This document shows positions 12,082 to 35,353 of a stretch of 35,353 nucleotides of DNA, in pieces. The stretch's first letter is position 1. Each line of letters starts with the position of its first letter. Position numbers and translations under genes: made by a program. Source of the DNA: an uncultured Verrucomicrobiota bacterium (lineage in GTDB: Bacteria; Verrucomicrobiota; Verrucomicrobiia; Limisphaerales; CAIMTB01); assembly GCA_903844265.1 (NCBI GenBank), contig CAIMTB010000360.1, forward strand, positions 1-35,353, read 5' to 3'. Below the pieces are notes generated by a model, which worked only from the letters and a program-made list of their open reading frames with translations, had not been told where the DNA came from and ran no database searches.

Positions 12082-15000
12082 TCAGCGACTCATCCAGCCG
12101 GTCGCATTCCCGTTGGTTTGGCCCATGTACATGTAGACAACGCCTCCTCCACCGAGTCGCCCCCCGTTCAGGACGTATCCGGCATCGGCGGCCTTCTCAA
12201 TGCGCAGCCGAGCCTCGGTCAGATGGGCCATCGTATAGGCGTCGAGCGAGTCCTTGCGTGCCTCGATCACCTTCGAGAGCCGGGCGCTCAGTTCGCGGAG
12301 TCGCATCAATGCCAGCGTCGCGACCGGCTTGTAGGAGGCCTGCCCCCATGAATCGAGCATGCTCAGATCAATCAACCGCTCGACATACTCCCGCTGCAGG
12401 TTCCGTCGCAGGCTCGAGATCATCGGCTCGCGGTCGGAATGCTTGCCCTCGGTCTTGTCGAGTTCGGACCACACCTCCGATTCAACCGTCTTGAAGATCT
12501 CGGGAAGCGTGACCATGTCCTCCTTCGCCGGAGTGAGAATCTCGTTGTCATACACACGGCCGAGGCTCCCCGGATTCAACAACCGCGTCAGGACCATGGT
12601 CTGGATGCCCATGACACGGTCGTGCACAGGCCAGGTCGGGTCCTCAAGGGCCGCCCGGTAATCATCAAGCCACTTGTCGACCGTCATGCGCCGGAGCAAC
12701 TCGGGATTCAAACCAAACGCCTCGTCGCGGAACGTCGTCTCGATCACGAATTTCAAGGCCTCCCGTTGTGTGGCAGCCGGCACGACCTCAATCGGCGGTC
12801 GCCCATTGGGATCCCCCTTCTTGTCCCGGTGCACAAAGGCCCCTCCCAGCCAGCCCGACATCATGCTGAGCGCCCGGGTCTGCACCGCCAGCGTCATCTC
12901 GTAACCGGAGCGCACACGCGACCAACTCTGGCCGTCCTTGACGAATTTCTCGATCAGCCGGCCTCGGTGGAACTGGGCCAGCTCCATCTGCTTACGTGCG
13001 TACTCCAAGGGATTGGATGCGAAATCGTAGCGGCGCGCGAGCGGGTCGGGCCCCATCGTGTCCTCGTCGGTCGCATACTGCAGGTCTGGCTGGGCGGCGC
13101 GGGAGAGGATGGCCTTCAGATCGTCCGGCTTTTCGGTGTTGGTGTAGCCGTACTCGATCGCCCAAAAGTCGTAAGGCCCGACGTCGATCATCCCGTAGTC
13201 GCCCTGCTTGTCCTTATCCTGCCAGTTGAACATGTTGATCGGCAGGTAATCCATGACAGAGCCTGCGAAGGGCTTCTTCCCCTTCATCTCGGCGCTGTTG
13301 ATCTTCTCAAGGGAATAGATGCTCGACGCCTTGAAGTTGTGCCGGAGCCCCAGCGTGTGGCCGACCTCGTGGGCCACCAACTCGGCGATCAACGGCCCGA
13401 CAAACCACTCGGGCACGCCATCCAGCAGTTCCTTCGGGTCTTCCTTCTTGGGCTCCTCCTTCTTCGGCTCGTCCTTCTTCGGCTCGTCCTTCTTCGGCTC
13501 GTCCTTCTTCGGCTCGTCCTTTTTGACCTCGTCCTTCTTGGGTTCGTCCTTCTTCTTTCCGTCGCCGTCCGCCGAGGAGATGGCATCGAGCATCAGGTCG
13601 AAGGAAAAGCGCATGACCGCGAGGTCCAGGGACTTGCACTCCGCGGCGCGGCAGAGGCCGCTGAACTGGCTGGTTCGTCCCACGAGGCCATCGTAGTCGT
13701 TGCTGCCCACGAGGGTTGGATCGACGCTGACCATGTCATGGCCGCCATACGGCTGGAGCCCGTGCGACATCAACTCCGCGGCCACCGCCTCACGGCTTGC
13801 CGGCGAAGCCAGCCGCACGCGGGGATCCCACTGCGGACGGGTCTGCAACCAGGCCAGTGTGGCCGGGCTCATGCCTTCCATCGCCAGCCCGGGCAACACC
13901 TCGTTGAACTGCTTCCAGTAATGCCGGATCCAGCCATCCGTCAGAACGATGTCCGCGTCCAGGATCTGGCCCGTGAGCGGATCAACCCGGCTGGGCCCGA
14001 TGGCGGTGCCGATGTTGTTGTTGAGCCAGCGGACAAAATTATACCGGACATCCTCCGGGTCCTTCTCCATGTGAGCTCCGGTCGCCGCGTCCTGGTAATA
14101 GACTTCGATCGCGTTCGCGATGCCGACCTTCTCGAAGGCCTTGTTCCACATCAGCACACCCTCGCGCACCCAGCGGCGGTAACGGATGGGCGTCGTGGAC
14201 TCGATGTAGAACACGATCGGGTTCTTCGGTGGGCTGACCTTGATCGCCGCATCCGCCTTCTCCAGGTGCCATCGGTTGATGTAGCGGACCCGGTTCTCCT
14301 CCGCCTGATACTTGCCAAGATCCGAGAAAGTGGTCGTGAAATAGCCGATGCGCTCGTCGGCCAGACGCGCGTGGTAGGACGGGTTGGGAGTGATTTCGCT
14401 GATGGAATAGTGCAGCGACTTCATGATGCCGTTGGCCATGGGCAACTCGAACGCAATCTCCACGTTGCCCGGAAACGCCTTGGCCGTCTTGATCGTGGCC
14501 AACTGCGTCTTCGCCCCGGCAACCATCGGCCCATAGAATTTCGCAGCCTCCCCCACCAGCAGCGAATCCAGGTCAATCACCGGCAGCTGGCCCGGCCCCG
14601 GCATCAACGTCACAATCGGCACATCCAGGATGACCCGGTCCGTGAACAACCGCTGGACGCTCGCCTTCGATTCCGCCTCGCCGGTCGACCGCACCTCGAT
14701 CTGCGGCGCGACCAACACCATGCGTTTGTCCACCCGCCGCCAGTAGACGTACATATCACCGGCCTGCAACCCTGCATACCGCTCCCCACTCGCCACGGTC
14801 AGCGCGATGAAGAACTTCTTGCCGGCATAGCCCTCCGGCAACACCCCCAGCATCTGGTTGTCCTTACGACGAACCCAGATCTGCATCAGGCTCGGTGCCT
14901 TGTCGATCGACGAGACCACCTGCTCGTAGTCCTTGAAAGCCTCCGCTTGCAGCGGAAACTCCGGCGGCGCGGGCGCGGGCGCCGGCGGCGGTGGCGCGCC

Positions 15001-15093
15001 CGGCGGTTGCTGGGCCATTGCCGGAAGAACAGCGGCCCCGGCAAGTAACAGGGTGGAAACTACGAACCTCATGGATGAGAAGAACGCGCGCAT
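12082..15093 (-). CDS. Secreted zinc-dependent metalloprotease (DUF5117/DUF4953 type)
   Basis: This 1003-residue protein has a signal peptide (residues 1-27, ending AMAQ) and a Pro/Ala-rich spacer (residues 28-47). The DUF5118/DUF5117-like N-terminal domains (to about residue 300) are followed by the catalytic domain with the metzincin-type motif HEVGHTLGLRH (His575, Glu576, His579, His585) and then NFKASS. The long C-terminal region matches DUF4953-type proteases common in Bacteroidota and Verrucomicrobiota. Just before the active-site helix sits a low-complexity insertion of repeated KKDEP units (residues 513-554), annotated separately. The enzyme probably acts in the periplasm or outside the cell; the substrate is unknown. 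An alternative start is the internal Met8 (15072), which still leaves a full signal peptide. No Shine-Dalgarno decides between them. Confidence 0.93.
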   Translation of the reverse strand: MRAFFSSMRFVVSTLLLAGAAVLPAMAQQPPGAPPPPAPAPAPPEFPLQAEAFKDYEQVVSSIDKAPSLMQIWVRRKDNQMLGVLPEGYAGKKFFIALTVASGERYAGLQAGDMYVYWRRVDKRMVLVAPQIEVRSTGEAESKASVQRLFTDRVILDVPIVTLMPGPGQLPVIDLDSLLVGEAAKFYGPMVAGAKTQLATIKTAKAFPGNVEIAFELPMANGIMKSLHYSISEITPNPSYHARLADERIGYFTTTFSDLGKYQAEENRVRYINRWHLEKADAAIKVSPPKNPIVFYIESTTPIRYRRWVREGVLMWNKAFEKVGIANAIEVYYQDAATGAHMEKDPEDVRYNFVRWLNNNIGTAIGPSRVDPLTGQILDADIVLTDGWIRHYWKQFNEVLPGLAMEGMSPATLAWLQTRPQWDPRVRLASPASREAVAAELMSHGLQPYGGHDMVSVDPTLVGSNDYDGLVGRTSQFSGLCRAAECKSLDLAVMRFSFDLMLDAISSADGDGKKKDEPKKDEVKKDEPKKDEPKKDEPKKDEPKKEEPKKEDPKELLDGVPEWFVGPLIAELVAHEVGHTLGLRHNFKASSIYSLEKINSAEMKGKKPFAGSVMDYLPINMFNWQDKDKQGDYGMIDVGPYDFWAIEYGYTNTEKPDDLKAILSRAAQPDLQYATDEDTMGPDPLARRYDFASNPLEYARKQMELAQFHRGRLIEKFVKDGQSWSRVRSGYEMTLAVQTRALSMMSGWLGGAFVHRDKKGDPNGRPPIEVVPAATQREALKFVIETTFRDEAFGLNPELLRRMTVDKWLDDYRAALEDPTWPVHDRVMGIQTMVLTRLLNPGSLGRVYDNEILTPAKEDMVTLPEIFKTVESEVWSELDKTEGKHSDREPMISSLRRNLQREYVERLIDLSMLDSWGQASYKPVATLALMRLRELSARLSKVIEARKDSLDAYTMAHLTEARLRIEKAADAGYVLNGGRLGGGGVVYMYMGQTNGNATGWMSR
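13431..13557 (-). repeat. Tandem 15-nt repeat encoding KKDEP units
   Basis: About eight near-identical 15-nt units (on the + strand, variants of TTCGGCTCGTCCTTC) encode consecutive KKDEP/KKDEV/KKEEP pentapeptides inside the zinc protease. Central units are identical at DNA level, which points to recent slippage expansion. The tract is in frame and does not break the gene. Confidence 0.9.
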
Positions 15094-16723: not shown

Positions 16724-18118
16724 TCAATCCTCCGGTCGCTCCCCCTGCGGCGCCATTTTCACCAACCGCGGATCAAACCGGGCCAGCACTTCAACCAGGT
16801 CCGACTGCGCCGCCATGACTTCGTGGATGTCCTTGTAGACCATCGGCGCCTCATCGATGCCCGCGGAAATCAACGTCACATTCGCCTCGCGCAAGGTCTG
16901 GTTCACCTGCTTCCAGTCGAGTGATTCGGTAGCACGCGTCCGGCTCATGCACCGGCCGGCGCCGTGTGACGCGGAGTTCAGCGAGGCCGGTTGGCCACGA
17001 CCGCGCACCACGAACCCGGGGGAGGCCATCGAACCGGGGATTATCCCCAGAACTCCCTTGCCAGCGGGCGTCGCGCCTTTGCGGTGCACCACCAGGTCGC
17101 GTTCCACGCCATCAACGACGTGCCGTTCTTTCCAGGCGAAGTTGTGGTGGTTCTCAAGGTCAAGCCGCACCCCGGCGCCCAGGACATCGGCGATGTGCCG
17201 ATGGATCAGTGCGTGATTCGCGGCGGCATAGCGTCCCATCAATTCCATCGCAGCCCAGTATTCACGGCCTTCATCGGTGTCGAGCCCAAGCCATGCGAGG
17301 CGTGACAATTCCTTCGGCAACTCCGGGTGCCGCTTCACCGCGAGCCGGCTGTAATGGTCGCACACCGCGGCACCTGTTCCACGGCTCCCGCTATGGCTCA
17401 GCAGCGCGACGTGTTCGCCCGGCTCCAACCCAATCGCCGCATCGGTCACGGTGAGCAGTCCGAACTCGACGAAGTGATTGCCGCTCCCACTCGTCCCCAA
17501 CTGCGCCCACGCCCGATCCTTGTTCTGGCGCGTGATCGGACTCACCGACCAGTCCTCATCCATCACCGCATGAACTCGTCGTTCCTTGAAGGTCGCGCCC
17601 ACGCCGAACCGTGTCTGTCCCTCGATCGCCCGCGCCAGCCGGTCCTGTTTCGAATCCAGGTCCCGCAACGCAAGATCCAGCACGGTCAGCTTCATCCGAC
17701 ACGCGATGTCCACCCCGACGGCGTATGGAATCACCGAGTGGTCCGTGGCAAGGACGCCACCAATCGGCAGGCCATAGCCGACGTGGGCATCCGGCATGAG
17801 CGCACCCGCCACCGAGACCGGGAGCAGACACGCCTTTTCCATCTGCATCACGGCCTCGTGCTCGAGGCCCTCACCCCACTGTCGGTAACGGATCGGGGTC
17901 ACACGCAAGGATTTCGGAGCATCCATCAGCACCCGTGCAAATCCACCACGCAACGGATCGCCAAGGAACCCCCCGGGATCAGCCACGACCGCCGCAACCT
18001 CCTCGGCGATCCGGGTTCGATCACCCCCGGCGAGACAGTAACGGGCGATGAAATCTGTCGCCCGCCCCAGCGCCTCGCCGAGAGGCACTCCCATGCGGAT
18101 GAGGTCGAAACTGTTCAT
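16724..18118 (-). CDS. rtcB: RNA-splicing ligase RtcB
   Basis: This 464-residue RtcB joins RNA ends carrying 2',3'-cyclic phosphate or 3'-phosphate to 5'-OH ends, using GTP and Mn2+. Visible motifs are MPDAHVGYGLPIGGV (residues 108-122), GVDIACRM with metal ligands Asp137 and Cys140, SGSGNHFVEFG (His215), LSHSGSRGTGA (residues 240-250), ENHHNFAWKE, GATPAGKGVLGIIPGSM, and the guanylylated His385 in SHGAGR. All catalytic positions are present. Neither RtcA, an RtcR-type activator nor archease is adjacent. The gene follows metY on the same strand after 69 nt that are almost entirely occupied by an inverted repeat ending three nt from the ATG, and there is no Shine-Dalgarno close to the start. 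Identification is secure; the physiological RNA substrate (tRNA or stress-cleaved RNA) is unknown. Confidence 0.96.
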   Translation of the reverse strand: MNSFDLIRMGVPLGEALGRATDFIARYCLAGGDRTRIAEEVAAVVADPGGFLGDPLRGGFARVLMDAPKSLRVTPIRYRQWGEGLEHEAVMQMEKACLLPVSVAGALMPDAHVGYGLPIGGVLATDHSVIPYAVGVDIACRMKLTVLDLALRDLDSKQDRLARAIEGQTRFGVGATFKERRVHAVMDEDWSVSPITRQNKDRAWAQLGTSGSGNHFVEFGLLTVTDAAIGLEPGEHVALLSHSGSRGTGAAVCDHYSRLAVKRHPELPKELSRLAWLGLDTDEGREYWAAMELMGRYAAANHALIHRHIADVLGAGVRLDLENHHNFAWKERHVVDGVERDLVVHRKGATPAGKGVLGIIPGSMASPGFVVRGRGQPASLNSASHGAGRCMSRTRATESLDWKQVNQTLREANVTLISAGIDEAPMVYKDIHEVMAAQSDLVEVLARFDPRLVKMAPQGERPED

Positions 18119-19634: not shown

Positions 19635-20906
19635 ATGCCTCTTCCACCTCCTGTCATCTTCGTTCCCGGCATCATGGGAAGTTCGCTCCGCGACGAATAC
19701 CCGGTGTCCCCCGATTCGGTGTGGAACGTCGCCCGGGCCGTGGTGAAGTCGTACGAGCGCATCACGCTGCATCCCGACAACCCGCGTTACGAGATGATCG
19801 AGCCGGCCCGGGTGGTGAAGGACCAGGTGTTCACGCTGTTCTACGAGGAGATCATCGAGGAGCTGCGCCATAATCTTGCCACGTCGCCCGACGAGCCCGT
19901 GCCGGTCTTTCCATTCGCCTACGACTGGCGCCAACCGTTGGCCGACACGCAGTCGCAGCTCGCTGATTTCATCGAGGAAGTCGTGGAGCGCACCCGGCTG
20001 CTCCGTCATTACCATCAGGACGGGTACACCGCGGAGGAGGGCAAGGTGAGCCTGGTGGGTCATTCGATGGGAGGCCTCGTGATCGGCGGCTACATCAAGG
20101 CCAAGGGCATGGACCGCGTGGAGAAGGTGGCCACCCTCGCCTCGCCATTCCGCGGATCGCTCGAGGCCATCGCCAAGACCGCGATCGGTGTCGGCGGATT
20201 CAGCCTGGGCTCCGGCGGCTCCCGCGAGCGCGAGGCGGCCCGCATCACGCCGGCGCTTTATCACCTGCTGCCATCCTTCGAGGACGCGGTGATCGCCGCA
20301 CCCGGGCTTGAGCGGGACATCTTTCTCCCCGCAGCCTGGCAGCCGGGCGTCCTCGACACCCTTGCGCTCTTCATCCAGCGCCATGGCCTTGACGACTCCG
20401 ATCCGAAGGAACAGGCGACCAGGCTGCTTGCCAGGCTCCTCGACCAGGCATGGAAACATCGCACCAGCCTCGAGCGGTTGCGCCTCGCCGATTCGCGGCG
20501 CTGGCTCTGCATCGCGGGCGTCGGAGCCCCCACGCGCCTCGGCGTGGACATCCAGGCCGATGCCGGAGGCAAACCCTTCTTCAACCTCGGGGAACCTGCC
20601 GACGCATGGAAAGCCGACGAACCTTCCGCTGCGACCGGCGACAACACCGTCCCGTTCCCCGGCGCCCGCTGCGCCTTCATCCCCGAGGAACAGGTCGTCT
20701 GCGTCAGTCCGTCCGACTTCGGGCTCTTTGAGTTCAAGGACCGCCTGATCAGCAACCTCGGGTTCCACGGCGCGATCCCGAACATGAATCTCGCCCAACG
20801 CCTGGTGACCGCGCACCTGCTCGGCCGGCCCGCGGCGAAAGGCGGTTCGCCGAGCCCGCTGATCCAGGCCCAGGCATGGGATCCGCCGGTCGCGGGGCTG
20901 AAGTAG
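19635..20906 (+). CDS. LCAT-like alpha/beta-hydrolase (acyltransferase/phospholipase family)
   Basis: This 423-residue alpha/beta-hydrolase has lecithin:cholesterol acyltransferase features. These are an N-terminal FVPGIMGSSLRD strand and oxyanion region, FAYDWRQP (residues 94-101), the nucleophile elbow VGHSMGG with Ser144, LASPFRGS, and a late GDNTVP segment that fits the acidic member of the triad. A His in LGFHGAIPNMN probably completes it. Family members hydrolyse or transfer acyl chains of phospholipids or lipids. No signal peptide or membrane segment is evident at the N-terminus, so it is probably cytosolic, unlike secreted eukaryotic LCAT. The substrate is unknown. It is divergent from metY with a 157-nt gap and converges on the lipoprotein gene with only 8 nt between stops. 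Confidence 0.88.
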   Translation: MPLPPPVIFVPGIMGSSLRDEYPVSPDSVWNVARAVVKSYERITLHPDNPRYEMIEPARVVKDQVFTLFYEEIIEELRHNLATSPDEPVPVFPFAYDWRQPLADTQSQLADFIEEVVERTRLLRHYHQDGYTAEEGKVSLVGHSMGGLVIGGYIKAKGMDRVEKVATLASPFRGSLEAIAKTAIGVGGFSLGSGGSREREAARITPALYHLLPSFEDAVIAAPGLERDIFLPAAWQPGVLDTLALFIQRHGLDDSDPKEQATRLLARLLDQAWKHRTSLERLRLADSRRWLCIAGVGAPTRLGVDIQADAGGKPFFNLGEPADAWKADEPSAATGDNTVPFPGARCAFIPEEQVVCVSPSDFGLFEFKDRLISNLGFHGAIPNMNLAQRLVTAHLLGRPAAKGGSPSPLIQAQAWDPPVAGLK

Positions 20907-20914
20907 ACAGGCTC

Positions 20915-23392
20915 TCAACGGCGCCGTGTGGCGTCCGCAGGTTCCGCTCCCGAGGGCGTGCTGACAAAATCCCAGCGGACAGAATTCCAGTTGAGTGGAA
21001 TTTTCGTCGCGCTGGCCAGCCGTGCCGCGGCCACGTCCCCGGCCTGCACTTCCCCAAAATTCCAGCGCTGACCGCTCGGCGTCTGCCAGCCCCACCAGGT
21101 GATCCGGGGCCAACCCGGCGTCTGTTCACTGCCCGAGGACAACGACTGCACGAGGTGCGTGTTCGGCCCCGGCACGTCCCGTTCCAATCCGAGCACGAAT
21201 GCCGAAGGCGGCCCCGCGGGAATCAACCGCTCGAACCTGGGCGCCTGAGCCGCGCGCAGGACTGCAAGGCAGCTCGCAACCACGCCCGACGGCGGGCCTT
21301 GGAACTGGTCCGGAGTCGCGATCGTCGCCAACCTTTCCGGCGCGGCGCCCAGCAACAACGACTCGAGCCGCACCCACGAGGGGCGCATGCGGGAGTCATC
21401 CGTGAATCGACGGTTGGGTTCCCACCGCCCCTCAAGCGCCACGAATTCGGACCGCACCTCGGCCTGCAGGTGTTCGCGGCAGAAACGCGCGACGTCTAGG
21501 TTCTGGAACCGGACCCATCGGTTCTCGAATTGTCGTCCGCCCGTCGCGGCCGGATAGCGCGGCCCGTCCATCTGCCAGCCCGCGACATCGCCCCAGAGGT
21601 TCGTGAGAAAAACGTCCGTGTCGATCGGCTCCATCGAATGCCAGGGCTGCTGCGCACGGAACCAGGGGGCGCCACATTGCCTGACGTGGAGTTGCACCAA
21701 TTCCCGCGCAAACTCAGCGCACCCGAACGCGTAGGCATCGAGGTCACCGGCGAGATACGCGAGCCGTGCAAACGCCAACGCCGCCGATGCCTCGTCGCCA
21801 GGTTCCGCGATCTGGTCCCGGCCAAACCCGACCCATCGCGTTTGCGCGGCCGTCGTGAACAACCGCCGGATCAATGACCATCGCTCCCGCACCAGTGCGT
21901 GATCGCCCGTGAAATGCGCATACGCCCAGACCGTCTCGAGAAGGTTCGCGCTGAATTTTCCGGCATCATCCAACGTCGTCCACGGCCCGATTCCAGGCCC
22001 CTCGAGGATCCTGTATTTCAGGCCCGATCCGGCGGGAAACTCGCGTTCGACAAAACGCCCGGGCACCAGCACTTCCTCCCGCAGATACCGGCGCAGGACG
22101 ACCACCGCGTTCGATCGGGTGACATCATCGAGATACGGCAGCGCCTTCGCGTACCACGAGTCTCCCATGACCGACCATGAGAGGTTGCCCGGCCCGCCGT
22201 GATCCGGCTGGAACCGGCCGGTCCCCGGAAACCGTTCCCGGGCAACCGCCCGCAGGCGTTGCAGCGCGGCGACCACGATCGGCGGCGCGTTCGAAGACAC
22301 CGGCAACGCCGCGGCTTCGGTCTCGTTCACATACCGCAGGACCGGAAACGTCATGTCGTAGCCATCAGCGTCCGGCACGCCATGGAACGGCCCGTACGGC
22401 GTCGGGATCTCGAAATCGAACGGTGCAGCCGAGAATTCCACCGGGAACCGCGGCCCCTGCTTCAACGCGAGCCCAAGCGTCGGACTGACCGGGGCGATCC
22501 TGATCGGGCGCGTGCCCCATTCGTCCGGGATATCCAGCCAATCGAAGCGCTGCCGAATCGTCACCGAACCCCTCCCCTGATCCACGCGGAGGGTGTCCTC
22601 GCAACGCACCGGAAAACAACGCGTCGCCCCCGCCCAATAACGCAGCCGCGTGAGCGGATCGCGAGCCACGGCGAGCGGCCATTCCCAGGTGAGGAGCTTC
22701 GGGCGCTTCATCCCGCCCGCCGACCCGGAATCACGTGACATGAACTTCCCCGACTTGCCGTCGACGCTCGGATCCTTGAACTCGTGGTCCATCTGCGGCG
22801 GCTTGTAGTAGCCGTACAACGGCATCATCGCGAAATGCGCCGCCGGCCCCACGAACTGCAACTCCACTCCGTTGGTGTTGAACTGCACCCGGGCCGGACG
22901 ACGCTGCAGGAACACCGCCCACGGACTGTCCCAGTTCGTCCACCCGCTCGCCCCAGGGAAACACGCCAGAAGCCAGTTCTCCCTCAATTCCGATCCATTC
23001 ACAACGTCGCCCGGACGCAGGGTCGCGATGCCCGTGGGCGAGGAATACGCCAGGAATGTGGGCCCGCCGAGACCCGTCGAGGCGAGGTCCGCAAACACGC
23101 GGACGCGGCTTTCGCTGCTGCGCCACAACGTCGCCGGAAACAGCTCCGTCTGGATCACGGTCAACGCGGCGTTCGTCGGCAATGACGCAGGCACCGGAAT
23201 CCTGGCAGGCCGCGGCCGCGAAACCTCACCCGCCGACCCGGTCACGAGCTCGCCATATGCGGCAGGCCCAGCCACTTCCGGCGTTCCGGCCCCCCCTCCC
23301 GAACCACATCCCGCGCCCAGCAACAGCCATACAAACGCGAGCGACACGGGGACCATCGCGGCGAAACGAGGGAGCGCGACAACCCTCCTCAT
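20915..23392 (-). CDS. Large lipoprotein of unknown function, possible alpha/alpha-toroid enzyme
   Basis: This 825-residue protein has a lipoprotein signal peptide (VSLAFVWLLLGAGC, lipid-attached Cys29) and a Gly-rich linker. The first half looks beta-rich. The middle and C-terminal parts contain helical segments with aromatic and acidic residues (YAHFTGDHALVRERWSLI, EPGDEASAALAFARLAYLAGD, WHSMEPIDTDVFLTNLWGD) reminiscent of (alpha/alpha)6-barrel glycosidases or lyases. I cannot name the family. It should be anchored in the outer or inner membrane, facing the periplasm or surface. It is the last gene of a three-gene unit: its ATG overlaps the stop of the PQQ-like propeller gene (ATGA), and that gene overlaps the PLP enzyme gene in the same way. 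Coding status is certain; the glycosidase idea is a guess from the pattern of helices. Confidence 0.85.
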   Translation of the reverse strand: MRRVVALPRFAAMVPVSLAFVWLLLGAGCGSGGGAGTPEVAGPAAYGELVTGSAGEVSRPRPARIPVPASLPTNAALTVIQTELFPATLWRSSESRVRVFADLASTGLGGPTFLAYSSPTGIATLRPGDVVNGSELRENWLLACFPGASGWTNWDSPWAVFLQRRPARVQFNTNGVELQFVGPAAHFAMMPLYGYYKPPQMDHEFKDPSVDGKSGKFMSRDSGSAGGMKRPKLLTWEWPLAVARDPLTRLRYWAGATRCFPVRCEDTLRVDQGRGSVTIRQRFDWLDIPDEWGTRPIRIAPVSPTLGLALKQGPRFPVEFSAAPFDFEIPTPYGPFHGVPDADGYDMTFPVLRYVNETEAAALPVSSNAPPIVVAALQRLRAVARERFPGTGRFQPDHGGPGNLSWSVMGDSWYAKALPYLDDVTRSNAVVVLRRYLREEVLVPGRFVEREFPAGSGLKYRILEGPGIGPWTTLDDAGKFSANLLETVWAYAHFTGDHALVRERWSLIRRLFTTAAQTRWVGFGRDQIAEPGDEASAALAFARLAYLAGDLDAYAFGCAEFARELVQLHVRQCGAPWFRAQQPWHSMEPIDTDVFLTNLWGDVAGWQMDGPRYPAATGGRQFENRWVRFQNLDVARFCREHLQAEVRSEFVALEGRWEPNRRFTDDSRMRPSWVRLESLLLGAAPERLATIATPDQFQGPPSGVVASCLAVLRAAQAPRFERLIPAGPPSAFVLGLERDVPGPNTHLVQSLSSGSEQTPGWPRITWWGWQTPSGQRWNFGEVQAGDVAAARLASATKIPLNWNSVRWDFVSTPSGAEPADATRRR

Positions 23393-24999
23393 GGCTGGAG
23401 CGGCAACCGGAACGCGGCTGCCTCACGGTCATTCCTCACGATCAGGACATCGCCCGCCATGGCCGCGGGATTCCAGGTCTTTCCCGTCACCGCCGAAAAC
23501 CGGGTGCGCTCACGAAACACGTCGGGCGCTGCGTCGACCAACACGACGTTGCCGTTCTCAGCCGTGACCAGGAGGAACTCCCCCACGAGCAGCAACTGCC
23601 CGTGCCCGTACCTCTCCCCATCCCACCGCCGGGTTCCTTCCTTCAGGTCCAGGCATACCAACCGCCCATCATCGAGCCCATACGCCACCGGACCCCGCAG
23701 GATGACATTCGCAAACTTCGACTTCAGCCGCATCGACCGCCACACCACCTCGGTCACCGACCACTTCCCATCCGCCCCCGGCGCCACCTCGATGAGATGC
23801 GCCCCGGTCCCGTAGCCGCTGGTCACCAACACCTCCCCGCGCTCCGGATCCACCACCCGCGGGTCTGCCACGTGCGGATGCCCGCCACGCCAGGGATGTT
23901 CCCACAGCTTCGCACCCGTGCCCGGATCGTGGCCCGCCACGCCCGCCCCGGTGAAGGTCAGGATCTGCGCCACGCCACGGAGGGTCTCGAGCCGCGCCGA
24001 ACTGTAATGCGGTTCTGCGGTTCCACCCGACCAGACGCCCTCACCCGTGTCCGCCCGGAACGCCATGAGCGAAGCCGACGGCTGCCTTCCCAGCGGCGCG
24101 ACGATGACCCGGTTCGAGATCACCAGCGGGGAACTGCTCAAACCCCACCCCAAATCCGACACCGGCCGCCCGTTGACTACATTCGTACTCCAGAGGACCG
24201 CCCCGTCGGCGAGGTTGAGGCAATTCAGAAACCCGGTGGCTCCAAGGGCGTACACGCGATTCGACACGACGGTCGGCGTGGCCCGCGGGCCGATGCCGCC
24301 GATCGGGTTGTCGTACCGGGCCGCATCGCGGTGGGCCCACACCCGGCGACCCGTCTGCAGTTCAAAACACGCGACGACTTCGTCCGGACCGTCCTGTTCC
24401 TGGGTCAACGCAAGGTTCCCCGCGATCGCAAAACCGCCCCAACCCGATCCGAGCGGCTGTCGCCAGAGCAACCGCGGCGGATGATTGGTCCAGTCCGGAA
24501 GCAGGCGGACTCCCCCGACCGTGCCGTCGCGGTGATCCCCGAGGAACTGGGAGAATCCGGGAAGCGCAGGCCCAGGAGTTGTCGCCGCCGTGACCACGGT
24601 ATCCGCAGCGACAGCCGCGACCTGCGCCTGGGCGGCGCCAACGGGGCTTGCCGCGCTCCGCTTCCACCGCCCCTCGAAGATCGGAACCAGGTCCCCCGTG
24701 ACGCCGACGAACCGGAACACCAGAAGGGCGAGACCCACCGCGCCGACGAAGCAGCCGAGCACGGACCATCGCGAACGCCAGCGCATCCGGGAGAAGCCCA
24801 TCACCCAGAGCAGCAGCAACCCCGCAACCACCAGCGTCACGACGCCGGTGCTCATCACCTGCGCCTGACGCGGCAAGTCCGCATCGCGCCAGATGAAGAC
24901 CAGGCGGGCCAGGCCCCCGAGGACGATGATCAACGCGGGCCACCAGCGCACCCCACGGCCGGGCGTGGGATCCGTAATCTTGGAATCAGTCGGGATCAT
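23389..24999 (-). CDS. Membrane-anchored PQQ-like beta-propeller protein
   Basis: This 536-residue protein has three N-terminal membrane segments (about residues 19-37, 48-67 and 78-99). An Ala-rich linker follows, then a PQQ-like (WD-type) propeller from about residue 150. Recognisable blades include VVACFELQTGRRVWAHRD, NCLNLADGAVLWSTNVV, AFRADTGEGVWSGG, GHDPGTGAKLWEHPWRGG and CLDLKEGTRRWDGERYG, ending in VDAAPD...AAMAGDVLIVRND. Such soluble propellers resemble quinoprotein dehydrogenases, but I do not see the disulfide pair or haem-binding CxxCH of the true enzymes, so a structural or binding role is equally likely. It is in the inner membrane with the propeller outside the cytoplasm. Start and stop codons overlap both neighbours (ATGA), which implies coupled expression with the PLP enzyme and the lipoprotein. 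Confidence 0.88.
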   Translation of the reverse strand: MIPTDSKITDPTPGRGVRWWPALIIVLGGLARLVFIWRDADLPRQAQVMSTGVVTLVVAGLLLLWVMGFSRMRWRSRWSVLGCFVGAVGLALLVFRFVGVTGDLVPIFEGRWKRSAASPVGAAQAQVAAVAADTVVTAATTPGPALPGFSQFLGDHRDGTVGGVRLLPDWTNHPPRLLWRQPLGSGWGGFAIAGNLALTQEQDGPDEVVACFELQTGRRVWAHRDAARYDNPIGGIGPRATPTVVSNRVYALGATGFLNCLNLADGAVLWSTNVVNGRPVSDLGWGLSSSPLVISNRVIVAPLGRQPSASLMAFRADTGEGVWSGGTAEPHYSSARLETLRGVAQILTFTGAGVAGHDPGTGAKLWEHPWRGGHPHVADPRVVDPERGEVLVTSGYGTGAHLIEVAPGADGKWSVTEVVWRSMRLKSKFANVILRGPVAYGLDDGRLVCLDLKEGTRRWDGERYGHGQLLLVGEFLLVTAENGNVVLVDAAPDVFRERTRFSAVTGKTWNPAAMAGDVLIVRNDREAAAFRLPLQP

Positions 25000-26105
25000 G
25001 GCTTCTTCAGCAACTGCTCGAACAGCACTCCACGCAACGCCGACACCTGCGCCGGCGTGTGCTCACTTGAGATCGCGAACCGAAAATAGCGGTCTGCGGG
25101 ACCGTTGGGATAGCGAATCAGCGGCGGATGAATCCCGGCATCGAGCAGGCGCTTCCTGAAGCGCAGCACCTCCCGCGCCGTTGCCGGAGCCACCGCAAAC
25201 ATCGGCCCCGGTCCCACCGGCGCCACCGCGCCTGCTTCCCGGAACCCTTCCTTCATCGTGGACAACGCCGCCGCGAGCCGCGCACGCCGCGTCGCACCCT
25301 CGCGCTCAAGGACTGCAAGCGAGGCGAGTGCCGCCGCCGCGAGCGGTGGCGGCAGCATCGTGCTGCCCGTATAAAGCCGGCTCCGCTCGAAGATGGCCTC
25401 GCGCAACGAGCGCGGCCCCAGCACCGCGCCTCCATAGCTTCCCAGCGCCTTGCTCAACGTCACCGTCAACACCACACGCCGCAGGGGAACGCCGCTCAAC
25501 TCCAGGCTCCCCCGACCACGCTTCCCCAGCACCCCCAGGCCATGGGCGTCATCCACCAACAGCGTCGCGCTCGCCGGCAATGCGTCGACCAGTCCCGCCA
25601 GGGGCGCAACCTCGCCGCTGTGGGTGAACAACCCATCGGTCATCACCAACGCCCGGCTTCTCCGTCCGCATTTCCGCACCACCGCGCCGCACCCCTTTGC
25701 GTCGCGATGCGGGAAAGTGACCACCGGCAACCCGGTCAATTGGGACGCATCCACCAGGCACGCATGGGCCCGCTCGTCCAGCACCACGTGGGTATGTTCC
25801 TTCGCCAGAGCCTGCGCCGCCACCAGGGGCGCGGCATACCCCGCCGACGTCAACGTCGCCACGCCCCACCCGAAAAAATCAGACAGCGCACGCTCCAGAC
25901 AGCCGTAGATCGGGACATTCCCCGTCGTCATCCGCGAGGCACAGGCGCTCGGGCCGAATCGTTCCAGACCCTCCAGGACCGCGGCGCGGACTTCCGGATG
26001 CCACGACAGGCGCAGGTAATCGCTGCCGGCGAAGTAGCTCAACTTCCGGCCGCGATCCTTCACCCACGTCACATCGGTCTGCTCCAACTCCCGCGGTTCA
26101 CGCAC
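24996..26105 (-). CDS. Alpha-oxoamine synthase family PLP enzyme (BioF/KBL-like)
   Basis: This 369-residue fold-type I PLP enzyme has the alpha-oxoamine synthase pattern. Visible are KLSYFAGSDYLRLSWHPEV near residue 21, GPSACASRMTTGN, LDERAHACLVDAS with the His that stacks on PLP, TDGLFTHSGEVAPL, VDDAHGLGVLG (Asp and His contacting the cofactor), and the Schiff-base Lys219 in TLSKALGSYGG. Family members condense an amino acid with an acyl thioester (BioF with pimeloyl, KBL, SPT, ALAS). No bio genes are nearby, so 8-amino-7-oxononanoate synthase is not assured and the acyl donor is unknown. It heads an overlapping operon with a membrane propeller and a lipoprotein, which points to an envelope product. 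The start is a GTG; no ATG exists in frame back to the upstream stop, and no Shine-Dalgarno is obvious. Confidence 0.88.
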   Translation of the reverse strand: MREPRELEQTDVTWVKDRGRKLSYFAGSDYLRLSWHPEVRAAVLEGLERFGPSACASRMTTGNVPIYGCLERALSDFFGWGVATLTSAGYAAPLVAAQALAKEHTHVVLDERAHACLVDASQLTGLPVVTFPHRDAKGCGAVVRKCGRRSRALVMTDGLFTHSGEVAPLAGLVDALPASATLLVDDAHGLGVLGKRGRGSLELSGVPLRRVVLTVTLSKALGSYGGAVLGPRSLREAIFERSRLYTGSTMLPPPLAAAALASLAVLEREGATRRARLAAALSTMKEGFREAGAVAPVGPGPMFAVAPATAREVLRFRKRLLDAGIHPPLIRYPNGPADRYFRFAISSEHTPAQVSALRGVLFEQLLKKP

Positions 26106-26285: not shown

Positions 26286-26394
26286 CCATGAACCGAGTGG
26301 CACCACGAAGGACACGAAGGACACGAAGGAACACAAATCCTCTGGCCTTCGTGATCTTCGTGACCTTCGTGGTAGATCCCCGCGTGGTTCATGG
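26286..26394. repeat. Palindromic element with CACGAAGG tandem units
   Basis: The left arm 26302-26329 (ACCACGAAGG then two ACACGAAGG) is complementary to the right arm 26346-26373 at 25 of 28 positions around a 16-nt loop. An outer perfect 9-nt pair, CCATGAACC (26286-26294) and GGTTCATGG (26386-26394), bounds the element. It could fold as a long hairpin in DNA or RNA. It has no coding sense; the in-frame HEGHEDHEG-type peptides are artefacts. Confidence 0.8.
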
Positions 26395-26433
26395 TCCCAA
26401 TGCGTGTCCAAATCTTGGAAAACCCGGCTCTCC

Positions 26434-27516
26434 ATGAACCTTCCCATCCACGCCGAAATGCCACAGCGCAAGGACTGGCGCATCGGGATCCTTGGTGCCG
26501 GTTTCATCGTCAACGACTGCCATCTCGTGGCGTATCGGAAGGCGGGATTCAACCCGGTCGCCATTGCGGCAAGGACCCGCGACCGGGCGGTGGAAGCCGC
26601 CCAGAGACACGGCATCCGCCTCGTCCACGAGTCCCCTGAGGCTTTGTTGGACGACCCGACGATCGAGGTGCTCGACATCGCTGTCCCGCCCGCGGCCCAG
26701 GTGCCGCTGATTCAGGCCGCCTGCAAACGGGGCACGTTGAGGGGGATCCTCGCACAAAAGCCACTCGGCGTGGATTACGCCGAGGCACTCACCGCCGTGC
26801 GGGCATGCGAGGAAGCCGGCATCGTCCTCGGGGTGAACCAGAACATGCGGTACGATCCGAGCGTCCGCGCCGCACGTGAGCTCCTCCGCTCGGGTCGGCT
26901 CGGCGAGCCGGTCCTTGCGACCATCGACATGCGCGGCATTCCGCACTGGATGCCGTGGCAGCGGGATCTTGGCTGGGCCACGCTACGCATCATGTCGATC
27001 CATCACCTCGACTGTTTCCGCGGATGGTTTGGTGACCCTGACCGCATCTACTGCAGCGTTCGCACCGACCCGCGAACCACGTTCCCGCACGTCGACGGCA
27101 TTGCCACCTACATCCTCGAGTACGCGTCCGGACTGCGTTGCGTGGGCATTGACGACACCTGGACGGGACCGGCGAAGGAAGGGTGCCCGGCCGATATCCG
27201 GATCGAGTGGCGCATCGAGGGTACGGACGGGCTTGCGATCGGTGACGTGGGTTGGTGCAAGGATCCCTACACCACGCCGAGCACGATGCGTTGGGCGGCA
27301 AAGGGCCATCGCGAGTTCCAGAAACCGCAATGGCCCGAGGCCTGGTTTCCCGACGCATTCATCGGCACCATGGCCCAACTCCTCGTCGCCCTCGAGCGGC
27401 GCGAAGAGCCCGAGATCGGCGGACGCGACAATTTGAAGACCATGGCCCTGGTGGAGGCCGCCTACCGAAGCGTGGAATTACGGCGCGCAGTTTCGCCGAC
27501 CGAGATCTCGGGTTGA
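26434..27516 (+). CDS. Gfo/Idh/MocA family oxidoreductase (cytosolic)
   Basis: This 360-residue protein from ATG 26434 has no export signal. The N-terminal Rossmann domain begins WRIGILGAGFIVNDCHL. The family's EKP motif appears as QKPLGVD, keeping the Lys and Pro but replacing the Glu. The C-terminal domain shows RIMSIHHLDCFRGWFGDP with the His pair that lies near the substrate. Members are NAD(P)-dependent dehydrogenases or epimerases of sugars, inositols and related compounds; the substrate is unknown. The ORF track uses GTG 26404, but that start lies within a repeat-flanked region. ATG 26434 (or 26458) fits the family better, and it falls inside the second copy of a 13-nt direct repeat. 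The gene is monocistronic, convergent with the next. Confidence 0.92.
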   Translation: MNLPIHAEMPQRKDWRIGILGAGFIVNDCHLVAYRKAGFNPVAIAARTRDRAVEAAQRHGIRLVHESPEALLDDPTIEVLDIAVPPAAQVPLIQAACKRGTLRGILAQKPLGVDYAEALTAVRACEEAGIVLGVNQNMRYDPSVRAARELLRSGRLGEPVLATIDMRGIPHWMPWQRDLGWATLRIMSIHHLDCFRGWFGDPDRIYCSVRTDPRTTFPHVDGIATYILEYASGLRCVGIDDTWTGPAKEGCPADIRIEWRIEGTDGLAIGDVGWCKDPYTTPSTMRWAAKGHREFQKPQWPEAWFPDAFIGTMAQLLVALERREEPEIGGRDNLKTMALVEAAYRSVELRRAVSPTEISG

Positions 27517-30957: not shown

Positions 30958-32325
30958 TCACTCCAACCGCTCAAAATTCGTCCACGTCACCAGGTCACCG
31001 ATCACTGGCCGACCATCGTGCCGCCAGGTGAGGGGCGGATGCTGCATCCGCCCGAGCGGGCAAATCCGCGTGATGCCCCAGGCAGCCAATGACTGGGACA
31101 ATTCTTCCGCGCGCCATCCCGAGGCCGCGATCCCCACCGTCGACCATTTCCCACGGAACGGCTCCGACTGGCGCAGGCACTCGTCAAGCGTATCGACAGC
31201 CTTCACGTGGACAAACCGATGCTGGCAGGAGACCTGGAACCGCGGATCCGCCTCGTACACCACGCTCCATGCGGTCGACTCGGGACTGTACCAGCAGCGG
31301 GTCGAATCCGACGCGGCAGCCCGGATGCGGTAGAATTCGCGCCTTCGAAACACCGCGGCAGCAGCCTCGTCGTCGAGCTTGCCCCGCGGAAGCCGACCCT
31401 CGACGCGGGCCAATTCCTCACCCAACTGCTTCGCGAATTCGTCCGGAGGCAGCGTGCCTCCCGTCTCGACGAAGATCGTCTGCGGGGAGAGGCAGCCCAA
31501 CTGGTCCCATGCGGCAACATCCTCGGCCGCGGCGGCGATCACCCGGGCAGCGTCGTGTTCTCCCAGCACCTCCCTCGCCACGTAGCCCGCGCTCACCCGA
31601 TGCCCGTGGGACAAGAACCTCACCCGCGGCGGAACAGCCTCGCGCAGGCTGGCGATGGCCTCGTCACTCCCGGAAGCCACAACGCAATCCGCCTCCCCGA
31701 ACAGCGCCGAATCCAAATCCCGCGTCCCTCCCTTCCATGCGCCAAGTTCGAGACACGCCGCGAGCTTCGGCTCGATGTCGCGGATCGAATGCGCAAACAG
31801 CCTGGGCAACAGCGAGGCTCCGGAAGCGCATTTCACGAACTGCGCCGAGCGCACGATCAACCCGTGGATGATGGAAGTGAACACCGGCGTCGGCAAAACC
31901 CCGGCGGCAACATTCACCAGCAGGTCCGGCCCGCGCGCAAACCCCAGCGTGTTCTGGACCGTCTCCGCATCGTTCGCAACCAGGCGATCCAACCGCTGCG
32001 GATGCCCAAGATCCTGGACAACCAGCGCCGTCAGGTTTCGCAGCGTCACCTGGCGGAAGAAGGCATCCAGCCCAGCCGCCAGCATCTCCCGGGAAAAACC
32101 CGTGGCCGCCGGCCCGTGATCCAGCGCCTTGGCCCGCCAAGGTGAATGCGGCGTCAGCCAGGACCTCGCCACCTCGGCAATGCACTGGAGAATCGCCTCC
32201 GTGGATCGTGGCAGGAGATACCGTTCGCGGTTCCGCTTCAGCGCCTGCCCTGCCTCGGAGATCATCTCCGGACGAAGCACAGCCTCGCTGGAAAGGTCCG
32301 CGATGAAATAGTTCGGAAGGTTCAT
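30958..32325 (-). CDS. LuxC-family acyl-CoA/acyl-protein reductase
   Basis: This 455-residue protein, from ATG 32325, is of the LuxC family, which reduces activated fatty acids to aldehydes with NADPH through a thioester on a cysteine. Supporting motifs are NVAAGVLPTPVFTSIIHGLIVRSAQFVKCASG (residues 138-169), the nucleotide-binding VVASGSDEAI, FLSHGHRVSAGYVA and the candidate nucleophile Cys278 in WDQLGCLSPQ. The C-terminal PLGRMQHPPLTWRHDGRPVIGDLV is also typical. A longer GTG start at 32379 would overlap the luxE-like gene by 22 nt; MNLPNYF is preferred as the family N-terminus. It directly follows the acyl-protein synthetase gene, so the two probably form a fatty-acid reductase pair. There are no luciferase (luxAB) or thioesterase (luxD) genes here. 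Confidence 0.93.
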   Translation of the reverse strand: MNLPNYFIADLSSEAVLRPEMISEAGQALKRNRERYLLPRSTEAILQCIAEVARSWLTPHSPWRAKALDHGPAATGFSREMLAAGLDAFFRQVTLRNLTALVVQDLGHPQRLDRLVANDAETVQNTLGFARGPDLLVNVAAGVLPTPVFTSIIHGLIVRSAQFVKCASGASLLPRLFAHSIRDIEPKLAACLELGAWKGGTRDLDSALFGEADCVVASGSDEAIASLREAVPPRVRFLSHGHRVSAGYVAREVLGEHDAARVIAAAAEDVAAWDQLGCLSPQTIFVETGGTLPPDEFAKQLGEELARVEGRLPRGKLDDEAAAAVFRRREFYRIRAAASDSTRCWYSPESTAWSVVYEADPRFQVSCQHRFVHVKAVDTLDECLRQSEPFRGKWSTVGIAASGWRAEELSQSLAAWGITRICPLGRMQHPPLTWRHDGRPVIGDLVTWTNFERLE

Positions 32326-32357
32326 CGAGTGGTCGCCGTCGACGGCAGCCTGGATGT

Positions 32358-33503
32358 TCAGGCCGCCATGAGCGAGCACCCGCGTGGCTCAACCGACGAC
32401 GCCCGCCCCAGCAACTCAAAAGTGTCGCCGTTCACCCGCCCCAAATCCCCGGTCTGGATCGCCAGCACGGACCACACATTCGCGAGATCCAACACCCGAA
32501 GCAGGCCGGTCTCCCCGTCGCGCACCGGGCGGCCTGTCTCCGGCGAAATCGCCAGGACACGCGCCCACGGTGGAAATCCGAACCGCCGTTCGCGACCGCG
32601 CCCGGCAACCGGCGCATCGTAGGCCTGCGAACTCAACTCGCTCATGCCGTACTCGCCGATGATCCGCCACGACGGAACCCCGAGCCGCAGCGAGATCCCG
32701 GCGTGAAGTTCATCCCTCGTCAATTCCCTCGACCTCCCCTTGTACCCGCCCGTCTCCATCACCCGCGATCCCGCAGGCAGCGGCCGCGACAACGGCGCAT
32801 CCTCGAAATGCTCAAGCAGGTGGACAAGATTGAACGCCGTTCCAAGGACCACGACCGGCCGCCCGCAGTCCGTCGCATCGGCAAACACCCGCCGCACCTC
32901 CTCGAACCCGACCTCCCAGGAACCATCCTCCCGCAAGCGTCCCGCAAAACAGGAACCCACCCCGCCGCGCCGACCCATCATCGACTCGATCATATGGACC
33001 AGCGACGAACGCGGCACGGATCCGGTCGGCGGCGTAAGCGAGAGAAGCAGAGCCCGACCCTCACCGTCACAGGGCTGCAACCCGTCCTCCCCGACCGTCG
33101 CCCCCCCCAACCCGAGCACCCCCCGCTCGAATCCACCGCGAAGCGACGCCCCATACAAGGCCAGGGATTCGCGGCTGTGGAAATGCCGACTCGGGCGCTG
33201 CCCGCTCGTGCCGCTCGAATGAAACACCGCGATCCTGTCCCCGGCTGGAATCGAACTCAGCTCAAGCTCCTGAAACGCAACCGTCGGCACCGAAGGAATC
33301 GCTTCCCACGTCCGGACAGACTCCGCCGAAACCCCGGACATTTCGCAGAGGCGCCGGTACGCGGGACAACTGTCGAATTGGATCCGGAACAGCTCGAGAG
33401 CCATCGATCCAAAATCAAATCCGGACCCGGGCACGCCCGACCCAGCCCAGGATTCCAAGTGTGATCCAAGGATGGGGGCGAATGAAGAGAGCCGTGGGGG
33501 CAT
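32358..33503 (-). CDS. LuxE-family acyl-protein synthetase
   Basis: This 381-residue protein from ATG 33503 is an ATP-dependent acyl-protein synthetase that activates a fatty acid and hands it to the LuxC-type reductase. Visible motifs are the phosphate-binding FHSSGTSGQRPSRHFHS (residues 94-110), MIESMMGRRGGVGS, ETGGYKGRSRELTRDEL (residues 250-265), the adenylate-forming EYGMSELSSQAYD (residues 284-296) and TGDLGRV. A cysteine sits near the C-terminus (RGCSL), where characterised LuxE carries its acyl-accepting Cys; this equivalence is inference. The ORF-track start at 33704 overlaps clpC and is rejected; Met34 (33404) is a shorter alternative. The luxC-like gene follows after 32 nt. The product is probably a fatty aldehyde, with no evidence for light emission. 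Confidence 0.92.
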   Translation of the reverse strand: MPPRLSSFAPILGSHLESWAGSGVPGSGFDFGSMALELFRIQFDSCPAYRRLCEMSGVSAESVRTWEAIPSVPTVAFQELELSSIPAGDRIAVFHSSGTSGQRPSRHFHSRESLALYGASLRGGFERGVLGLGGATVGEDGLQPCDGEGRALLLSLTPPTGSVPRSSLVHMIESMMGRRGGVGSCFAGRLREDGSWEVGFEEVRRVFADATDCGRPVVVLGTAFNLVHLLEHFEDAPLSRPLPAGSRVMETGGYKGRSRELTRDELHAGISLRLGVPSWRIIGEYGMSELSSQAYDAPVAGRGRERRFGFPPWARVLAISPETGRPVRDGETGLLRVLDLANVWSVLAIQTGDLGRVNGDTFELLGRASSVEPRGCSLMAA

Positions 33504-33567
33504 GACGGTTTTTGTTGTTCCGCACGGGAGCGGGACAGGCTGGTTGACCGCGACAGCCAGGAGCAAC

Positions 33568-33605
33568 GGTGCCCGATCGGGTGCGATCGGGTGCGATCGG
33601 GCACC
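33568..33605 (-). terminator. Stem-loop with tandem GATCGGGTGC units after clpC
   Basis: GGTGCCCGATC (33568-33578) and GATCGGGCACC (33595-33605) are perfect 11-nt reverse complements around a 16-nt loop. The loop and arms are formed by repeated GTGCGATCGG units. It begins 13 nt after the clpC stop, in the 115-nt gap before the luxE-like gene. It may terminate or attenuate read-through from clpC; there is no U-tract. Confidence 0.5.
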
Positions 33606-33618
33606 GATCAGGGTGGGA

Positions 33619-35353
33619 TCAGGTTGTACCGGCCTCCGCTGGGAGTGGGCCGGAGGCGGAGGCCTTCTGGCGGAACACGAGCTTGCCGTCCTGGGCCATG
33701 ACATCGACGGGTTCGCCGTCGACGAGGCTGCCGCGAAGGATTTCCTCGGCCAGCGGGTCCTCGAGATGACGCTCGACTGCGCGACGCATGGGACGTGCGC
33801 CGTACTGCGGGTCGTAACCCTTCTCGACGAGGAAATCCTTGGCCGTGGAATCGAGGACCAGCTTGAGGTTCTTGCGCTGCACGCGCTCGACGACCTTGGC
33901 GATCTCGAGGTCCAGGATCTGGATCAGGTTTTCCTTTGAGAGCGAGTGGAAGACGATGACGTCGTCGAGGCGGTTGAGGAATTCCGGCTTGAAGAACCGC
34001 TTGGATTCCTCAAGCAGCTTCTCGCGCATCCGGTCGTAGTTCGCACCCAGCTCCTCCCCGTTGGAGCCGAACCCCATGACGTTGTTCTTCTTGATCGTCT
34101 CCGCCCCGACGTTGGAGGTCAGGAGGATGATCGTGTTGCGGAAGTCGATCTGGCGCCCCTGGGAGTCGGTGAGCTTACCTTCCTCAAGGATCTGCAGGAG
34201 CATGTTCGCAACGTCCGGATGAGCCTTCTCAAGCTCGTCGAACAGGACCACGCAATACGGCTTGCGACGGACCGCCTCGCTCAGCTGACCGCCCTCCTCG
34301 TAGCCCACGTACCCGGGGGGCGACCCCACCAGGCGCGAGACGCTGAACTTCTCCATGTACTCCGACATGTCGAGCTGCACGAGCGCCTTGGAATCGCCGA
34401 ACATGTGCTCCGCGAGCGCCTTGGCCAGGAGCGTCTTCCCGACCCCGGTCGGCCCAAGGAGCATGAACGTGCCGATCGGCCGCTTCGGATCCTTGAGGTC
34501 CGCACGCGAACGGCGAAGCGCACGGCTAAGCGCGGCGACGGCCTCCTGCTGACCGACGACCATCCGCCCCACCGCCTGCTCCATGTCGAGAAGCTTGTCG
34601 GCCTCGGACTGCTCCATGCGCCGGAGCGGAATGCCGGTCCACTTCGAGACGACATGGACAACGTCCTCCTCGTCGACCAGGACCCGCTTTTCCTCGCGGT
34701 TGTTCTTCCAGGCATTGAGAACGCTCTCGAGCTTCTCCTTGGCCTGTTTCTCCTTGTCCCGCATCGCGGCGGCTCCCTCGAAGTCCTGCTCCTTGATCGC
34801 CTTTTCCTTGCGGGCCTTGATCGACTCGATCTCGGCCTCGATGTCCTTGACCTCGGGCGGACGCGTCATGGCGCCGATGCGCGCGCGGGAGCCCGCCTCG
34901 TCCATGACGTCGATGGCCTTGTCCGGAAGATACCGGCCGGTGATGTAGCGGTCGGAGAGCTTGACCGCGGCGTCCACCGCAGCGTCGGTGATGTCGGCCT
35001 TGTGATGGTCCGCGTACTTCGGGCGCAGGCCCTTCAGGATCTGGATCGCCTCGTCGACGCTGGGGGCCTCGACCTTGACGCTCTGGAAGCGGCGTTCGAG
35101 CGCGGCGTCCTTCTCGATGTACTTGCGGTACTCGTTGAGCGTCGTGGCGCCGATGCACTGCATCTCACCGCGGCTGAGCGCGGGCTTGATGATGTTCGAG
35201 GCGTCCATCGTGCCCTCGGCCGATCCGGCGCCGACGATGGTGTGCAGCTCGTCAATGAACAGGATGATGTTCTTGGAGCGGCGGATTTCGTCCATGACCG
35301 CCTTGATGCGCTCTTCGAACTGGCCGCGGTACTTGGTGCCGGCGACCATGAGC
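33619..35353 (-). CDS. clpC: ATP-dependent Clp protease ATP-binding subunit ClpC (5' end outside window)
   Basis: The frame is open to the right edge (...[17 protein letters not shown]), so the N-terminal domain and the Walker A of the first ATPase are missing. The visible part has the NBD1 Walker B region [32 protein letters not shown] and a linker with a UVR-like segment ([20 protein letters not shown]). NBD2 shows [57 protein letters not shown] and sensor residues through [23 protein letters not shown]-like linker and MGF loop (for ClpP docking) support ClpC over ClpB, whose long coiled-coil M-domain is absent. It unfolds substrates for ClpP in the cytosol. The identification is firm, the ClpC/ClpB distinction nearly so. 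Confidence 0.95.

Follow-up and report, generated by a model that had tools for sequence, protein, structure and literature searches.

An order-specific alpha-oxoamine synthase is coupled within one genus to a lipoprotein with a predicted GH81-like fold

The closest described counterparts of the three proteins encoded at this locus are the alpha-oxoamine synthase BioF, the BamB-type beta-propellers and the GH81 beta-1,3-glucanases. Alpha-oxoamine synthases are fold-type I PLP enzymes that have a Schiff-base lysine, a D/H pair and an arginine for the substrate carboxylate, while GH81 enzymes combine a beta-sandwich with an (alpha/alpha)6 barrel and carry the signature DGNNQESSSE. ORF calling in the 35,353-nt window (the whole stretch of DNA that was analysed) revealed relatives of these systems in three overlapping minus-strand genes at 20915-26105: an alpha-oxoamine synthase of 369 aa (24996-26105), a membrane-anchored BamB-like beta-propeller of 536 aa (23389-24999) and a lipoprotein of 825 aa (20915-23392). 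The GTG start of the first gene is backed by homologues whose alignments begin at the same residue. A protein search found one related named record, a Verrucomicrobiales metagenome assembly, and the window is placed in the phylum Verrucomicrobiota accordingly.

Both junctions in the trio are exact 4-base ATGA overlaps. The 3' neighbour, an LCAT-like hydrolase gene (19635-20906), is convergent and the 5' neighbour, a GFO/IDH/MocA oxidoreductase gene (26404-27516), is divergent, so the transcription unit consists of exactly three genes, as an earlier note on this DNA had claimed from the overlaps. However, 4-base overlaps were also found at three further junctions within the window (6348, 7568 and 10111), and the overlap alone therefore indicates co-expression and nothing more specific. 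In the divergent region upstream of the operon, and outside the operon proper, lies a dispersed hairpin repeat (26286-26394) with inverted half-sites CACGAAGGNCACGAAG, flanks CCATGAACC/GGTTCATGG and an RNA fold z of -5.4. We found 76 matches to a shorter and 39 to a longer hairpin pattern in the window's genome, where many copies sit at contig ends and the true number is probably higher; the longer pattern had no match in three other genomes of the genus (G001-G003) and two in the fourth (G004). The repeat looks like a species-specific insertion since the gap between the MocA and oxoamine synthase genes is 298 bases in the window versus 101 and 147 bases in G002 and G003. Elsewhere in the window we observed homologues of a DUF4953/DUF5117 Met-zincin metalloprotease of 1003 aa (12082-15093) and of an RtcB-family RNA ligase (16724-18118; PF01139), the latter scoring well under the curated RtcB model cut-offs.

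The first gene product matches PF00155 (e-value = 3e-27), and its best-scoring curated model is the BioF model TIGR00858 (e-value = 1e-77), at 261 bits and thus under the 426-bit cut-off. The Schiff-base lysine K219, along with D185, H188, H114 and R342, is present and conserved throughout its clade, and all of the family features given above were found. In a maximum-likelihood tree of 61 sequences anchored by E. coli BioF and E. coli Kbl, this clade stands apart from both with 99-100% support. The same genome harbors a separate BioF on contig C538, which scores at the cut-off (427 bits) and is immediately followed by bioA, as well as a strong Kbl on contig C192 (622 bits). No bio genes adjoin the window enzyme itself. 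We therefore rejected a plain BioF identity, in line with the earlier note, on the strength of the sub-cut-off score, the distinct clade and the BioF-bioA pair found elsewhere. Further, the clade carries specific changes at conserved positions (S/C28, R32, Y67 and G247), the last of which is an aromatic residue in BioF and Kbl. Of 58 genomes of the order, about 35 encode a member of this clade, and G004 has in addition a fragment at a contig edge, while a search at 1e-55 of 288 further genomes from across the phylum found no match; a scan of viral contigs returned one match of 36%. We also observed a fourth oxoamine synthase clade in the tree, sister to the window clade, in G043, G044, G056 and G007 (loci L150, L151, L152 and L100). 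The window enzyme thus belongs to a third alpha-oxoamine synthase clade that is order-specific and distinct from BioF and Kbl, and it probably works as an oxoamine synthase in some process other than biotin synthesis. By the chemistry of its family, it would condense an amino acid with an acyl thioester, with loss of CO2, to give an alpha-aminoketone for a non-biotin use.

The second product has three predicted transmembrane helices at residues 20-38, 44-68 and 74-98 (encoded at 24706-24942 on the minus strand) followed by a BamB-type propeller, which bears out the three-helix extracytoplasmic propeller described in the earlier note. The arginine-rich loop between the second and third helices suggests that the N-terminus is cytoplasmic and the propeller periplasmic. 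Foldseek matched BamB-type propellers with an E-value of 1e-18 and Pfam PQQ_2 was matched at 3e-28, while the BamB equivalog model (TIGR03300) gave 41.5 bits against a cut-off of 285. About 19 copies of this propeller family were detectable in the window's genome, and other families encode orthologues (44-49% identity) at unlinked loci. Given that the gene is optional in the genus and belongs to so large a family in its genome, the propeller is unlikely to be a dedicated part of the operon.

The third product begins as bacterial lipoproteins do, with a signal peptide (hydrophobic residues 10-28) and a lipobox cysteine, C29, which does not vary among nine aligned relatives, the window protein included. 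No match of any weight was found in Pfam, NCBIfam or PDB sequences. An AlphaFold2 model (pTM 0.75, mean pLDDT 67.5) places an (alpha/alpha) toroid between a beta-sandwich and a C-terminal beta domain. The N-terminal beta domain (residues 77-349; 22346-23164, minus strand) is common to distant homologues in the phylum and to toroid-less short forms such as the G042 and G044 relatives, two of the nine aligned, which keep it and have no helical domain. The helices at residues 371-714 (21251-22282, minus strand) lie between two beta domains in the model, and this agrees with the toroid that had been put forward as a possibility. When the model was compared with the PDB by Foldseek, the top 12 matches were all GH81 beta-1,3-glucanases (E = 3e-9 to 2e-6, probability 1.0), with the next family at E = 2e-3; the GH81 combination of beta-sandwich and (alpha/alpha)6 barrel is thus seen in the predicted model only. 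A profile comparison between the lipoprotein family and a GH81 alignment purpose-built from members of the same class gave an hhalign probability of 1.4%. GH81 membership by sequence was therefore rejected, and the fold match taken together with the failed profile comparison points to similarity at the level of fold, not family. On the predicted model, the lipoprotein very probably has a GH81-like fold.

A motif comparison found that E530 and E534 are spaced (E-x-x-x-E) like the glutamate pair in the ESSSE motif of GH81, at about the same place, and that D476, at a place comparable to the GH81 catalytic-acid motif, is kept in several distant homologues. The full signature is absent from the lipoprotein. 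Both candidate glutamates are missing in G003 and G004 and one of the two in G001 and G002, so some members of the family may be inactive. Even so, our view leans toward a protein that acts on glycan, which it would bind or cut at or outside the outer membrane. Many of the distant homologues across the phylum (L105-L130) are 1000-1300 aa long; most share the beta domain and some the toroid. Pfam places these beta-domain proteins in no known catalytic family, and they possibly form an unclassified carbohydrate-active family.

Overlap between the genes for enzyme and lipoprotein is seen in every one of the five congeners, either directly or through overlaps with a propeller gene between them. 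The whole trio with ATGA at both junctions recurs in G001, where no MocA, MetY or other tested window neighbour was found within 6-9 kb, so there the trio stands intact in other genomic surroundings. The enzyme-lipoprotein pair of G002 and G003 overlaps by ATGA with no propeller, and in G004 the two genes overlap by a stretch longer than 4 bases. Coupling persists across all five at protein identities of 40-58%. In G002 and G003, MocA and MetY flank the pair in synteny and are far better conserved (75-85% identity) than the enzyme (56-58%) or lipoprotein (45-51%), so the pair changes rapidly without coming apart; since this flank is also conserved, part of the linkage is general synteny. The oxoamine synthase and the lipoprotein are thus translationally coupled in one genus, and the operon combines an enzyme found order-wide with a propeller that is optional and a lipoprotein of predicted GH81 fold that evolves fast. 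Outside the genus, the presence of enzyme and lipoprotein is independent (2/31 versus 2/20, p = 0.64), and G019 and G044 have the lipoprotein but no enzyme of this clade. Co-occurrence, whose absence the earlier note would have taken as a refutation, therefore holds for the enzyme-lipoprotein pair in all five congeners, whereas the trio was found in two of the five and nowhere else, and the proposed undescribed system is partly supported, as a genus-scale operon and not as a widespread one.

The best explanation, to which we give about even weight, is a genus-level operon kept by selection for co-expression. The enzyme and the lipoprotein would serve a single cell-envelope function, a joint role there being our best guess; functional coupling of the two within the genus is plausible, although their part in one physiological process falls slightly short of an even call. 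Counted in favor of this explanation are the catalytic residues conserved across the clade, the BioF and Kbl encoded elsewhere, the GH81 Foldseek matches, C29, the kept overlaps and the G001 setting; counted against it are the lack of association outside the genus (p = 0.64), the varied enzyme neighbourhoods, the lost acids, the hhalign value of 1.4%, the flank synteny and the commonness of short overlaps. An alternative is an accidental operon, in which functionally unrelated genes have been co-transcribed since the genus ancestor owing to overlaps that are hard to separate, the enzyme doing an order-wide job, the propeller being one of many and the lipoprotein an independent glycan-binding or -cutting surface protein. 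The absence of co-occurrence outside the genus, the unlinked propeller orthologues, the lipoprotein in two genomes without the enzyme clade and the frequent 4-base overlaps all fit such an accident, but the intact G001 trio in its different setting and the coupling in 5/5 genomes at 40-58% identity speak against it, and we regard it as a serious but less probable account than selection for co-expression. A bolder form of the selected operon, in which a new aminoketone building block is dedicated in this genus to an envelope glycoconjugate and processed at the surface by the GH81-fold lipoprotein, is improbable on present evidence; if true, it would represent a new kind of envelope modification system.

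A further alternative is an envelope amino-lipid or long-chain-base pathway, in which the enzyme would act on a long-chain acyl thioester as serine palmitoyltransferase (SPT) does and the lipoprotein would handle a glycosylated lipid outside the cell. For the G002 clade member the BioF and SPT models score fairly close (268 versus 210 bits), G247 in place of the BioF/Kbl aromatic might widen the acyl pocket, and in two other families (G053 and G033; L075 and L082) a phosphatidylserine decarboxylase (Psd) gene follows the clade enzyme by 7-12 bases. However, this adjacency was seen in 2 of about 35 cases, the window enzyme reaches 180 bits against a 500-bit SPT cut-off with the other SPT models lower still, and no ceramide-type partner gene recurs beside the enzyme in the neighbourhoods read. 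We found no support for a sphingolipid gene set. The earlier note had raised an envelope amino-lipid or amino-sugar product as one hypothesis. Such a product found no support here, and the sole new functional clue, the GH81-like fold of the lipoprotein, points to glycan; the amino-lipid product is a guess, and the pathway as a whole appears quite unlikely.

Outside the genus the neighbourhoods of the oxoamine synthase are varied. Several families have, close to the enzyme gene, look-alikes of PanB, MoaC, MoaB, ThiG, PilT and a sugar kinase along with a small lipoprotein of SLBB type (L062, L066, L069, L077, L079, L080, L081 and L092); neighbour identities were judged from sequence, and the SLBB, esterase and Psd proteins alone were checked against Pfam. 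A lipid cluster around the enzyme elsewhere was rejected, as the recurring neighbours do not look like fatty-acid genes. We also observed homologues of LuxC (acyl-CoA reductase) and LuxE (acyl-protein synthetase) in the window (30958-33704) with no obvious lux operon; in G017 (L098) such a pair and a propeller orthologue are about 3 kb apart. Proximity of the pair to the enzyme is confined to G000 and G003, LuxC is nearly universal, occurring in most of the order's genomes, and both ancestry and genome completeness confound its correlation with enzyme presence (34/36 versus 13/20, p = 0.007); LuxC and LuxE were accordingly rejected as operon partners. Finally, that the window enzyme is a KAPA synthase paralogue and second biotin enzyme is very improbable, for although TIGR00858 is its best-scoring model the score stays below the cut-off, the cut-off-level BioF directly precedes bioA in the same genome as it does in many relatives, nearly all genomes with the clade enzyme keep a separate BioF, and no bio gene recurs near clade members in the neighbourhoods read.

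The advance is small yet real: a clade of non-biotin oxoamine synthases specific to the order, and a lipoprotein family of predicted GH81 fold that has no sequence-level annotation. About 60% of the sampled genomes of the order carry this second oxoamine synthase, which automatic annotation would probably call BioF; with biotin accounted for elsewhere, an order-wide reaction has therefore been overlooked. The lipoprotein, in turn, may offer an entry to a family with the GH81 fold that escapes sequence libraries.

Compared with known systems, the window enzyme shares with BioF (TIGR00858) the fold, the PLP lysine and the neighbouring catalytic residues, and it differs in an N-terminus shorter than that of E. 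coli BioF, in S/C28, R32, Y67 and G247, and in having no biotin context. The second protein has the propeller fold of the BamB/PQQ_2 proteins, but it is anchored through three transmembrane helices rather than a lipobox and scores far below the BamB equivalog cut-off. The lipoprotein differs from GH81 enzymes such as BhGH81 (5t4a, 4k35) and CtLam81A (6fop) in its low identity (8-10%, TM 0.36-0.50), its lack of a Pfam or hhalign match, its missing signature, its lipid anchor and candidate acids that are not in all relatives, whereas its predicted overall architecture and the spacing of E530 and E534 are those of GH81.
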